NCBI GenBank assembly: GCA_034231615.1
Contig: CM067315.1
Span: forward strand, 32,267,691-32,331,690
Direction of reading: 5' to 3'
Source of the DNA: Meghimatium bilineatum
Lineage: Eukaryota; Mollusca; Gastropoda; Stylommatophora; Philomycidae
DNA: 64,000 nt
In this document: piece by piece, positions 666 to 41,851 of the stretch
Layout of the letters: the number at the start of each line of letters is the position of its first letter
Numbering within the stretch: the stretch's first letter is position 1
The notes under the pieces: model-generated
What the model was told of the DNA's origin: nothing
Database searches by the model: none
Seen by the model: the letters and a program-made list of their open reading frames with translations, nothing else
Position numbers and translations under genes: made by a program

Positions 666-793
666 AAATGCTAAATGAAACGTATCTGTTTGTGGGCGAT
701 GATCTACATTTGACATGCACTCTCGACGGAGACCCAATGGAGAATTACACTGCTCATAATGTCAGCTTCATCAGCATCAGAGATTCGCTCAAG
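666..793 (+). CDS. Class I cytokine receptor (gp130-like), exon 1 in window: first half of Ig-like domain
   Basis: This exon follows a tctcccag acceptor and ends at a caag|gtgatg donor. It enters in phase 1 and leaves in phase 0, giving 42 whole codons. The protein contains LHLTCTLDGD, the B-strand cysteine region of an Ig fold, and two N-glycosylation sequons (NET and NYT). It joins in frame to exon 2, which supplies the F-strand cysteine. The Met at 668 is internal, not a start, because the phase-1 acceptor requires an upstream exon, presumably with the signal peptide outside the window. The donor is followed by three more copies of itself in a 46-bp tandem repeat. Ig first and cytokine-receptor homology second is the order known for gp130-type receptors. 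Confidence 0.75.
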
Positions 794-975
794 GTGATGA
801 AATCAATCGTAAATACCCTGTCATTAACCTTCATTCAAGGTGATGAAACCAGTCATAGATACAATGTCATTAACCTTCATTCAAGGTGATGTAACCAATC
901 ATAGATACGATGTCATTAACCTTCATTCAAGGTGATGAAACCAGTCATAGATACCATGTCATTAACCAATTTAGC
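794..975. repeat. Minisatellite, 46-bp unit carrying the exon 1 donor, about 4 copies
   Basis: Each unit begins with aag|gtgatga, identical to the exon 1/intron 1 border. Donor-like GTs fall at 794, 840, 886 and 932, exactly 46 bp apart. The intron therefore begins as a tandem copy of its own splice site. Confidence 0.9.
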
Positions 976-1189
976 GTCTGTCTATAAACTATATTAGGAG
1001 AGACAAAAGAGTGTGACAGCTGTAGACCAAGGGGGAGGATGTAATTTTCTTACAAAAGTTTTCTTAAAAAAACACATAAAAAAAAATACACCAATTACAT
1101 TGTAAAACACACATAAAACAGAGATTGTGTAACAGAAGCTAAGCAGAACATCAGGCCAGTTAAACGGATGTCAATGGCACAAAACTAAA

Positions 1190-1400
1190 GCTGATCTCAA
1201 GAGTTCAAATATTTAGGAAGTGTCTTTACTGAAGATGGCAAACTCAATAGAGAGATCGAAAAAAGGTGACAGAAAACCAATGCTGTAACTTACTATCTGT
1301 CGCCAATACTCAAACACTCATAATTCTGCATGGCTACATAATGCCAATTCAAAAACAGTATTTTTCTTGTGTTTGAGGAAAGCTATAAATGTTACTAGAC
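1190..1400 (+). pseudogene. Non-LTR retrotransposon reverse-transcriptase fragment
   Basis: From about 1204 the frame reads EFKYLGSVFTEDGK then an IEKR motif. This is the post-thumb region of LINE reverse transcriptases (xFKYLGSxxTxDG). It is followed by TNAVTYYLSPILKH after an in-frame stop. It is short, broken and not expressed as a protein. Confidence 0.7.
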
Positions 1401-1446
1401 GAGACTGACAAAAAAAAAGAGTAAGGTTAGTTTAAAGGGGAAACGA

Positions 1447-1939
1447 CGACAGACAGACAGACAGACAGACAGATAGATGATATATAGATGATAGATAGAT
1501 AGATAGATAGATAGATAGATAGATAGATAGATAGATAGATAGATAGATAGATAGATAGATAGATAGATAGATAGATAGATAGATAGATAGATCGATAGAT
1601 AGATATATAGATAGATAGATATATAGATAGATAGATAGATAGATAGATAAATAGATAGATAGATAGATAGATAGATAGATAGATAGATAGATAGATAGAT
1701 AGATAGATAGATAGATAGATAGATAGATAGATAGATAGATAGATAGATAGATAGATAGATAGATAAATTATACAGTCAGACAGAGAGACAGACAGATATA
1801 TAGATAGGCAGATAGACAGACAGGTCAGACATACATGGATGGATATATATATATATATATATATATATATATATATATATATATATATATATATATATAT
1901 ATATATATATATATATATATATATATATATATATATATA
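1447..1939. repeat. (GACA)n/(GATA)n followed by (AT)n microsatellite
   Basis: About 320 bp of GACA then GATA tetranucleotides (with a few variants) run to about 1765, then a (AT)n tract of about 97 bp at 1843-1939. The AT run is an almost pure alternating sequence. Confidence 0.97.
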
Positions 1940-2084
1940 ATTGTGATCATCACCTTCAAAGCAATCCGTTTGTGATTTTTTACTTTTATGTCAGGATCCT
2001 GACACTGATGGAAGCACCCCTGGTAGGTTCATTTTGGAATATTCCTCAAAATTCTAGTCGCGTTGGCTCACGACCGTCTTCAGT

Positions 2085-2285
2085 AAGACTTGTTATCTTG
2101 AATTATGGAGTGACCCGACGGGTAACATTGTTGGGATTTCGGCTGTCACTATTTATATACTTAGAGTTGCCTTGGCTTTTTTTTGGCATGCGATTATTAT
2201 GTAAATAGTGACCAACCAAGAACCGAACAGTAATGAAAAACGGAACGAATGAGGTCCTAATTAATTTAGTTGAAAAGTCTTTATT
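2085..2285. mobile_element. Foldback MITE, family D, copy 1
   Basis: The two halves are inverted copies: gtcactatttatatac in the left arm against gtaaatagtgacc in the right, with an internal T-rich spacer. The right end (aacgaatgaggtcctaatta) recurs in the copies at 49905 and 54375. There is no coding capacity. Confidence 0.6.
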
Positions 2286-39239: not shown

Positions 39240-39480
39240 ATATCTTGCAGGAAGTTAATTTAAAAAGGAGCTAAAATGCGCGCATAAGAAATAGACAGTC
39301 CATATTTTTTGGACACGTTATGAGAACAGACAAGTTGATGAACAAGAGGAGTGAAGATAGACCAAGAGAGGAAATCAGGCATTGTGGCATTGGAGAATAT
39401 TGATAGCAAAAATGATTGACAGCACACGAAATAGAAGACTGCAGAAAGACATGAATAACCAACACCACACAGCAGGGACC
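39240..39480 (+). pseudogene. LINE C-terminal fragment
   Basis: Reads IRNRQSIFFGHVMRTDKLMN, then RSEDRPREEIR, the FGHVMR tail of a non-LTR element, on the opposite strand to both neighbours. Confidence 0.7.
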
Positions 39481-39653
39481 ATAAGACGAAAGATGATTGG
39501 TCTTATAGATCAAAACTGAGACATTAAAACCTTCCACGTGCGATTGTATGGATTAATGTCAACATATGGATTTGATATCAATGTTCAGAAAACAAAAAGC
39601 CATATGATCAATAAAGAATGACCAACTAAAGTTAAATATTCAAGTCATCATCA

Positions 39654-39953
39654 TCATGTGCCGTGGCGAATGGCGTTGGCGATCATATTTCTCCATGTAC
39701 ATCGATCTCCCATACATGTCATAATCTCTGTTGGTGTCGTCAATCGAAGCCATTTAGTCAAACTGTCCAATATCTTTTCTCTGGTTCTTCCTCTTGATCT
39801 TTTTCCTTCTATCTTTCCTGTTGTCACTACATTCTTAATGCCTCCTCTTCTCAATATGTGCCCAATAAATATTGACTGTCTTTTTCTGTACAAGAAATAT
39901 TCAAGTAAAAGATGTAAAACGACAGCAAGATGTGAATTATACATCTTGGACAT
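39654..39953 (-). pseudogene. LINE C-terminal fragment
   Basis: The minus strand, open for 99 codons, reads RKRQSIFIGHILRRGGIKNV, then GKIEGKRSRGRTREKILDSL. Same lineage as 17640. Confidence 0.85.
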
Positions 39954-41190
39954 ACAATTAATTGAAACTTATCAGCTAAAGAGTAAAAAGAGAATAATAA
40001 TTATCAAAAACAATATTTAAAAAAATGAAAATCATACATTTTTTTCTTCTAAAACATTTAAAAACATTTTTTTGGGGTTGGACGGAGTGAGTAAAAACAT
40101 TTTGATATAATTATGCAGAATGTTCCCTGAATTATTGACATAATTCTGCAGAATTTTCTCTGAATTCTTGACAGTAAGAGGGGGAGGGGTAAAACAAATT
40201 TATTACGTAATTTATGGACTTTAGTCAAGCACTTTAAGCCCTTCCTATTCTACATTTTAACTTTAATCATTCTTCAATTGTTATTTTAAAATGTGGCAAC
40301 TTTGAACAAATTGTTCAATTTTTGCTATCATGTCCACGGACAATTTCAACTATGCTTCAATTATTTTTATAATTTATGGAAACGTTGAACAATTTGTACA
40401 ATTTTTGTTATCTTGTCTACAGAAAATTTCAGAGAAGAGGAATGATGTTCAGAGATATGAGAAACGATGTAAGTAAGGTCACAAAAATGTTTCATTTTAG
40501 AACCTTACGTTTTTATCCGGTAAACAAGATTTGAACCAGGTTTATTCAGAAAGCACATACTTTGTTAAATAGTAATACATATTTGCGGTGTGGTCCAAGA
40601 CAGAAACAGGTTGGCTAAAGTTGCGAGGCGTGTGGGTGCCATCTGAGATAATATTGTTCAAATGCCGTTTTCTTGCATTATGATTTCTTTAAAATAATAA
40701 ATCTTCGATGCTTCTTTATTAAATTGTAGTTTTTTACCCGAAGGAATTACGAATATATAGCTCTTATATCCTTTTGTGAATATTTTGGGAAGTGCGTAGG
40801 GATGGGGGCTTTTACCTAGAGACTTATTTCGTACCAACAAGACTAAAACGCACGTAATGGCCTATATGATATAAGTTGAGGCCATGTACTCACAGAGGGT
40901 AAAAAACAAAATTGCTATCTATAACCTCTTCATATCGGAGACCATGAAATTTAAGGAATTAGGTGTGCAGACAAAACCGGTATAATATCGAGAGGTTTCA
41001 CAGGTGTAAAAATATTGATTGTGTCAAACATCATAGAAAGGCTCAAAATCTTTTCTTTTATGCCATCTAGTTATCTTTTAGTTAGTTATTTAGTGAGTTA
41101 GTTCGTTAGTTAAATATTTAGTTAGGTAATTTAACAATTAGTTAATTTGTATTTATTAAAATCTAGTTAGTTAGCAATCAAGTTAGTTTA
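39954..41190. other. Introns 13-14 intervals flanking exon 14
   Basis: A tRNA-like SINE piece T2 at about 40580-40670 (ttgcgaggcgtgtgggtgcc). A TTAG-rich patch at 41080-41220. No gene other than exon 14. Confidence 0.5.
40423..40468 (+). CDS. gp130-like receptor, exon 14: basic juxtamembrane microexon
   Basis: The acceptor is cttgtctacag and the donor cgat|gtaagtaag; entry is phase 2 and exit phase 0, with 15 whole codons. The peptide RKFQRRGMMFRDMRND is strongly basic, fitting the positive-inside stop-transfer region right after the helix of exon 13. Only 46 nt long, it would be missed by most gene finders. It connects the membrane to the Box1-like exon 15. Confidence 0.75.
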
Positions 41191-41194
41191 ATAA

Positions 41195-41624
41195 TTAATT
41201 AGTTAGATAGTTAATGAGTGAGTGAGTTGATTTTGTTTTCTTTCCATGTTGAGCTCCTGGTTGTAAGTTGTAGTTCTTGTTGTATTTCTTATTACCAATA
41301 TTGAGCTTTCTATGTTCATTGTTTTGTGTAAACTTTCGTTCAGGAAATCTACATTTTGTCTGTGCCGTCCACATGAATGTTTGTTTGGAATGTCTGTTTT
41401 CATCCAATTTTAAGCACATGACCGATGTAATTCTAGTGTCTTCTTATATAAATTGCCGAAAATTCTTGATTTGTTTCCTCCCTTGGTGAATCTCTTGTTT
41501 TAACATCTGACCAGTTTATGTTCAATATTCTTGGAAGGCAGTTGTTTCCAAAGGTGATTAATGTGGAGTCGATTGTGTGTATTTCCCACTTTCGCATCCA
41601 TACGACACTACACGTGTTATGCAC
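41195..41624 (-). pseudogene. Possible LINE post-thumb fragment
   Basis: The minus strand reads TIDSTLITFGNNCLPRILNI then NWSDVKTRD, resembling the AFExxCxRRILxIxWxDxV segment of LINEs. Weak. Confidence 0.45.
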
Positions 41625-41813
41625 GCATTCAACAATCTAAGTTGTGTAAGTTTGTTGAATACTTGTCAGCGACATATAAGATGAATATATATATATATAT
41701 AAGCTTGTTAAATGCACCAGTTGTCAGAGCTATGCGTGTTGATATCTCTCTGTATTACAACTCGGTTTATATGACAATCATTTAAATATTATTTACTTCA
41801 ATTTATATTCCAG

Positions 41814-41851
41814 CTTCTGAACTGGCGTGACACAGTGCCCAGCGACATCTA
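41814..41851 (+). CDS. gp130-like receptor, exon 15: Box1-like JAK-binding microexon
   Basis: The acceptor is tatattccag and the donor tcta|gtaagaa; entry is phase 0 and exit phase 2, with 12 whole codons. The peptide LLNWRDTVPSDIY has the W-x-x-x-V-P core of a Box1 motif (gp130: W-x-x-V-P-x-P), placed 17-30 residues from the membrane, where class I receptors bind JAK kinases. The final proline of the canonical Box1 is Asp here. The donor is strong and of the same TA|GTAAGA type as exon 3; reading past it gives TAG. The function follows from family knowledge and position; only the motif is seen here. Confidence 0.62.

Follow-up and report, generated by a model that had tools for sequence, protein, structure and literature searches.

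We describe here a candidate class I cytokine receptor gene from the stylommatophoran land slug Meghimatium bilineatum, which lies between positions 666 and 41851 on the plus strand of a 64,000-nucleotide stretch of chromosome 18 (assembly GCA_034231615.1, contig CM067315.1, positions 32,267,691 to 32,331,690), referred to below as the window. The best reading of this gene, to which we assign a probability of roughly 85%, is that it encodes a molluscan class I receptor of the gp130/G-CSF-receptor (G-CSFR) group, that is, a molluscan 'IL6R'. Its predicted product consists, in order, of an immunoglobulin (Ig) domain, a cytokine receptor homology region (CRH, domains D1 and D2), three domains of the size of fibronectin type III (FNIII) domains (D3–D5), a transmembrane helix, and a basic stretch. 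The gene is molluscan, hence protostome, and what it adds is its intron pattern: the age of the IL-6-receptor family has been argued mostly from the divergent Domeless of Drosophila, whose CRH is encoded by a single exon, and a gene of vertebrate-type layout in a mollusc, with the intron-phase series described below, offers a second line of evidence, that of gene structure, which is independent of weak sequence similarity.

The exons were rebuilt by reading three frames, independently of the exon list of the initial annotation, and the splice-site weights were softened after accepted exons had scored low under the first ones. The resulting model comprises 15 exons, 2041 nucleotides when joined, every one of which (15/15) is preceded by AG and followed by GT; the joined frame runs through 679 residues with 0 stops, whereas 42 stops occur in each of its two alternative frames. 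The single frame of fifteen exons first proposed was in this way recovered with the same start (666) and end (41851), its length being corrected from 681 to 679 residues, and no broken frame is seen in the part of the gene covered. Each of the six ectodomain units is divided between two exons (Ig, 109 residues; D1, 100; D2, 100; D3, 99; D4, 110; D5, 109), with all six domain borders in phase 1 and the phases inside Ig and D1 to D5 being 0, 2, 0, 0, 0, and 1, respectively, in agreement with the two exons per domain and phase-1 borders noted at the outset. The transmembrane segment reaches a hydropathy peak of 2.37 against a best value of 1.36 elsewhere (19-residue windows, maximum at starts 630–632). 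The gp130 order of Ig, CRH, three FNIII domains, and transmembrane helix, likewise claimed initially, was found again by domain lengths, exon pairs, the Pfam matches of Ig and D5 (fn3, 6.5e-8, for the latter), and the transmembrane peak; D3 and D4 are assigned by length, exon pairs, and alignment, Pfam recognizing the Ig domain and D5 only. The predicted exons 1–13 are well supported, and exons 14 and 15 are tentative. Exon 14 is the top-scoring of 7 candidates between 38260 and 41800, and its first 9 bases fall inside an 83-bp tandem repeat (40272–40431). An additional exon between exons 3 and 4 was considered and dropped, the donor at 13077 (TA|GTAAGA) supplying the phase 2 that is needed.

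The similarity of the putative CRH to vertebrate receptors emerges both from searches of solved structures and from spliced decoys. When a 651-residue part of the protein was used as the query, the best match was the CRH of the G-CSF receptor (E = 3.3e-4), spanning D1 and D2, with two titin Ig entries (the better at E = 6.4e-4) and then IL-23R (E = 0.0074) behind it, and a search with the CRH only again placed G-CSFR first (E = 0.0015). As a control, 30,000 decoys were built from the window (15,000 per strand, exons 1–13 excluded), each from four random AG...GT exons of 89–208 nucleotides with matching phases, and for both vertebrate CRH queries the real CRH ranked first among 30,001, scoring 19.8 bits against 12.4 for the best decoy with G-CSFR and 15.9 bits against 8.9 with IL-23R. 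These queries had been picked as hits of the real sequence, which means that the decoys control for splicing freedom and not for the choice of query, and we count this as a point against the assignment, to be set beside those gathered below. The class I pattern of D1 is given, in the available part of one report, as C-x(9-10)-C-x-W-x(26-32)-C (PMC10276838); the slug D1 fits it as C-x10-C-x-W-x28-C, with CTW, so that the Cys-x10-Cys-x-Trp noticed initially is present and extends to x28-Cys, and the same Cys/Trp pattern occurs in 8 of the 30,000 decoys. Membership in class I is accordingly proposed by similarity and by the D1 pattern, though not by a full WSXWS motif.

The decoys also bear on whether the locus might be a pseudogene or an artefact of joining exons by hand. 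Minisatellites do crowd the introns and overlap two donors, and the acceptor of exon 9 and the donor of exon 12 are weak, but the 15 exons follow one another with consistent phases and without a frameshift or stop, and 0 of 30,000 decoys of like construction attain the real scores; we regard this explanation as very improbable, and the locus appears to be a real gene of the slug chromosome.

Several further results weigh against the assignment to the class I receptors. The titin Ig entries stand second in the 651-residue search, at the E-value given above; the CRH-only search lists PLK1 polo-box chains next after G-CSFR (E ~0.05), with IL-23R not among the 30 matches listed; and D3–D5 searched by themselves match weakly, their best hit being Contactin-4 at E = 0.18. 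Ig_3 passes the Pfam cut-off with exons 1–2 alone (5.8e-7, 30.4 bits vs a cut-off of 30) and falls under it in the whole 651-residue protein (26.5 vs 30 bits). Pfam yields no CRH family for D1 or D2, just TSLPR_D1 at E = 6.5, and PF06328 and PF09240, which gp130 carries, go unrecognized by it in the slug protein. The last two cysteines of D1 are 6–7 apart (CCESHVTGC) and thus outside the family spacing of 10–15, and the WSXWS motif is incomplete, the box retaining just its first WS when aligned on G-CSFR (FWSDPV; WSGFWSDPV). Finally, the FNIII exons of the window are absent among the at least 123 fn3 matches listed from a six-frame search of the genome (1.612 Gb, 32 contigs), in which 150 of 364 candidates were scored and exons were searched singly, hence as half-domains.

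The titin match and, more weakly, matches to contactin, DCC, and neogenin lend something to the view that the gene encodes an Ig/FNIII cell-adhesion protein, of the contactin or neogenin kind, in place of a cytokine receptor. Titin, however, matches the Ig part only, whereas exons 3–6 match a receptor CRH across both of its domains and bear the D1 Cys/Trp pattern together with phases 1-2-1-0-1, and we give the adhesion-protein explanation very little credence. On the side of Pfam, human IL-23R is likewise listed without domains in the accessible portion of a published account (PMC12162339). As for the WS box claimed by the initial annotation, its first WS is kept and the remainder of the motif is not; incomplete WSXWS motifs are reported for the invertebrate receptors aligned in the available part of PMC10276838, and a full motif therefore does not define the invertebrate members. 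A search of NCBIfam profiles returned 0 families, and scans of the window with Rfam and for tRNAs returned 0 matches each. The coordinates and features of the predicted exons are collected in Table 1.

Table 1. Predicted exons of the slug receptor gene, in window positions.
Exon	Position	Strand	Features
1	666..793	+	Ig domain, first half; entry phase 1, out phase 0; Pfam Ig_3 5.8e-7 jointly with exon 2
2	3724..3922	+	Ig domain, second half, VEDAGRYSC; out phase 1
3	12936..13077	+	CRH D1 first half, Cys-x10-Cys-x-Trp; out phase 2
4	15507..15664	+	CRH D1 second half, later cysteines; out phase 1; aligned to G-CSFR
5	17165..17310	+	CRH D2 first half; out phase 0; 3' end inside 40-bp minisatellite 17274-17582
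6	19863..20016	+	CRH D2 second half, incomplete WS box WSGFWSDPV; out phase 1
7	21245..21333	+	FNIII D3 first half; out phase 0
8	23220..23427	+	FNIII D3 second half; out phase 1
9	24435..24598	+	FNIII D4 first half; out phase 0; acceptor the weakest among exons 1-13
10	25520..25685	+	FNIII D4 second half; out phase 1
11	29662..29808	+	FNIII D5 first half; out phase 1; residues 532-604 match Pfam fn3 at 6.5e-8
12	34865..35044	+	FNIII D5 second half; out phase 1; donor the weakest among exons 1-13
13	38172..38247	+	transmembrane helix; out phase 2
14 (tentative)	40423..40468	+	basic juxtamembrane RKFQRRGMMFRDMRND; phase 2 to 0
15 (tentative)	41814..41851	+	LLNWRDTVPSDI; last bases readable as splice donor TA|GTAAGA or as stop TAG

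At the 5' side the receptor gene is incomplete within the window, its first part wanting: positions 1–616 are satellite, and the window yielded no exon for a signal peptide. Three weak signal-peptide candidates lie in the 30 kb upstream; none is claimed, and the best of them looks by eye like a fragment of a repeat. LIFR and OSMR have an Ig domain and a CRH followed by three FNIII domains, with an additional N-terminal CRH in LIFR. That second CRH is not seen in the slug gene, whose 5' end falls outside the window, and the gene might in principle be LIFR-like, with another CRH ahead of its Ig domain and beyond the window; exon 1 enters in phase 1, which makes another domain formally possible, and the missing signal-peptide exon is compatible with it. 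We nevertheless consider this improbable, tblastn over the 30 kb upstream having given no receptor-like match above 24 bits, a level that a diverged CRH could escape. The full tblastn search with the protein covered 164 kb, made up of the window and its flanks (the latter including 5000 N); apart from copies of the exon 5 end in minisatellites and a single minus-strand match of 25.8 bits (E = 0.64), it gave no other receptor-like match above 24 bits.

The 3' end admits two readings of the same bases, a TAG stop at 41850–41852 or a splice donor, TA|GTAAGA, identical to that of exon 3. By family knowledge, a receptor of the gp130/G-CSFR group would bind its ligand at the CRH elbow and the Ig domain, its membrane-proximal FNIII domains would join two receptor chains, and JAK, held at the membrane-proximal cytoplasmic stretch, would phosphorylate tyrosines of the tail to which STAT would be recruited. 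The anatomy of the ectodomain and transmembrane segment favours a receptor that would take up its ligand with the Ig domain and CRH and dimerize by way of its FNIII stalk. The cytoplasmic tail needed for the signalling step was not found in the 92 kb downstream. The scan for it covered phase-2 exons of the plus strand between 41.86 and ~134 kb (window coordinates), and short or low-scoring exons would escape it; the best plus-strand score was 8.3, against 37.6 (a repeat), 12.6, 11.2, 10.1, and 9.5 in a minus-strand control of ~152 kb, and that no tail exon exceeds the control counts against the assignment to this group. Nor does the Box1-like motif of the initial annotation help, since the same 96-kb span holds 8 such motifs on its plus strand and 3 on its minus strand; WRDTVPSD is indistinguishable from chance and by itself no evidence. 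Among plus-strand open frames of at least 35 residues between 38 kb and the end of the window, none has two YxxQ motifs, and an open frame at 94724–95059, promising as a tail exon, was set aside for want of a good donor.

If the TAG is taken as a stop, the product would be a short-tailed, non-signalling form with ~28 cytoplasmic residues, whose role would be that of a decoy or a dominant-negative partner; Latran, which plays this part towards Domeless, is a precedent described in the available part of PMC2914635. The in-frame TAG, the failure to find a tail exon over those 92 kb, and the polyadenylation-like ATTAAA at 42308 and AATAAA at 42649 all speak for such a form. Yet the very same bases form the donor used in exon 3, which must be spliced if the second half of D1 is to be joined, and tail exons of the kind to which the scan is blind could lie downstream; we see the short-tailed form as the less likely alternative.

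The gene is set in a repeat-rich region, the window being dense in minisatellites (81 Tandem Repeats Finder rows in 64 kb), among them a 5.1-kb array of a 26-bp unit at 6669–11794 and the array at 17274–17582, whose 40-bp unit carries the end of exon 5 and its donor ~7.7 times over, with six more copies of that splice donor after the first. Minisatellite arrays overlap two donors (exons 1 and 5), and 2 of the 15 donors have at least two copies downstream; the idea that minisatellites are born at splice donors was rejected as being at chance level, since 362 of 3221 control GT sites (11%) are alike in this respect. Broken pieces of non-LTR retrotransposons are present at 44028–44406 (RNase H, 9.9e-7), 26260–26496 (zf-RVT, 1.6e-4), and 30161–30334 (RVT_1, 1.7e-4). 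An open frame at 63423–63635 ends in a C2H2 finger (1.1e-4, under its cut-off) and is probably part of a repeat, as a similar frame lies at 73034–73327 in window coordinates. The longest open frame seen downstream, of 563 residues at 80934–82622 (window coordinates), resembles a mobile-element protein. Elsewhere in the genome, at least 43 of the at least 123 listed fn3 matches fall within ~140 kb (C9:41.90–42.04 Mb), a cluster that is probably a titin/twitchin-like giant gene.

Class I receptors probably share the intron-phase series of class II receptors. The CRH phases of the slug gene, 1-2-1-0-1, are the first five of the interferon (class II) receptor series 1-2-1-0-1-0, which the available part of PMC8863823 gives for IFN-upsilon-R1 along with further interferon receptors, and a literature search found no paper printing a CRH phase series for class I receptors. 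Were phases random, a match over five of them would arise by chance in 1 of 243 cases. Phase-1 borders are common in Ig/FNIII genes, however, and the informative part is therefore the inner 2 and 0, with a chance of ~1 in 9. Together with the Ig-CRH-FNIII layout, the pattern suggests that the receptor design predates the split between molluscs and vertebrates, and it makes the age of that design testable by intron positions in snails, bivalves, annelids, arthropods, and chordates. The occurrence of this intron pattern in a protostome suggests that the single-exon CRH of Drosophila is derived.

Among known receptors, vertebrate gp130 (IL6ST) and the G-CSF receptor (CSF3R) have the layout Ig-CRH-3xFNIII-TM (transmembrane), and the slug gene is like them in domain order and in the D1 Cys/Trp pattern, differing in its incomplete WSXWS and in giving no Pfam match to IL6Ra-bind or Lep_receptor_Ig. 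Within the molluscs, IL6R has been followed back to Mollusca by a survey of 2026, which also attributes the IL6R domain to mollusks. In the part of its text that is available, the normal IL6R/gp130 layout starts with a signal peptide and an Ig domain, continues with the IL6R domain and three to four FN3, and closes with TM and tail (PMC13203501), while an Ig domain in molluscan IL6R is not stated there. The order from Ig to TM is that of the slug gene, which comes from the same phylum and is a further member of a receptor type already traced to Mollusca. The words 'exon' and 'intron' occur 0 times in the text of the survey. A gp130-like protein of Ciona, as described in the accessible part of Liongue and Ward (PMC1963337), has the gp130 topology, as in the slug, and a CHD splice structure resembling that of GP130; Ciona is a deuterostome and the slug a protostome, and with GP130-like splicing already on record outside the vertebrates, the slug gene is less novel than the initial annotation implied. 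Its claim that the layout is informative on the age of the family accordingly stands for gene structure in a protostome and loses in novelty to the survey's tracing of IL6R to Mollusca.

The arthropod Domeless receptors of Drosophila and shrimp share with the slug protein a four-cysteine CRH, an incomplete WSXWS, FNIII domains, and a transmembrane segment, and the available descriptions name CRH and FNIII and no Ig (PMC10276838, PMC2914635). Domeless is described there with a CBM at the N-terminus, whereas the slug protein has an Ig domain ahead of its CRH; Drosophila Domeless further differs in its LDHR region and in its single-exon CHD (PMC1963337, in the part available), and is said in the available text of the survey to lack the IL6R domain (PMC13203501). 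With an Ig domain and a CRH split over exons, the slug gene does have the more regular layout first ascribed to it, and the comparison supports a predicted ectodomain more canonical than that of Domeless. On balance we lean towards the view that arthropod Domeless lost its Ig domain, with the introns lost as well in flies, contrary both to a single-exon ancestral CRH and to an IL6R first added in molluscs.

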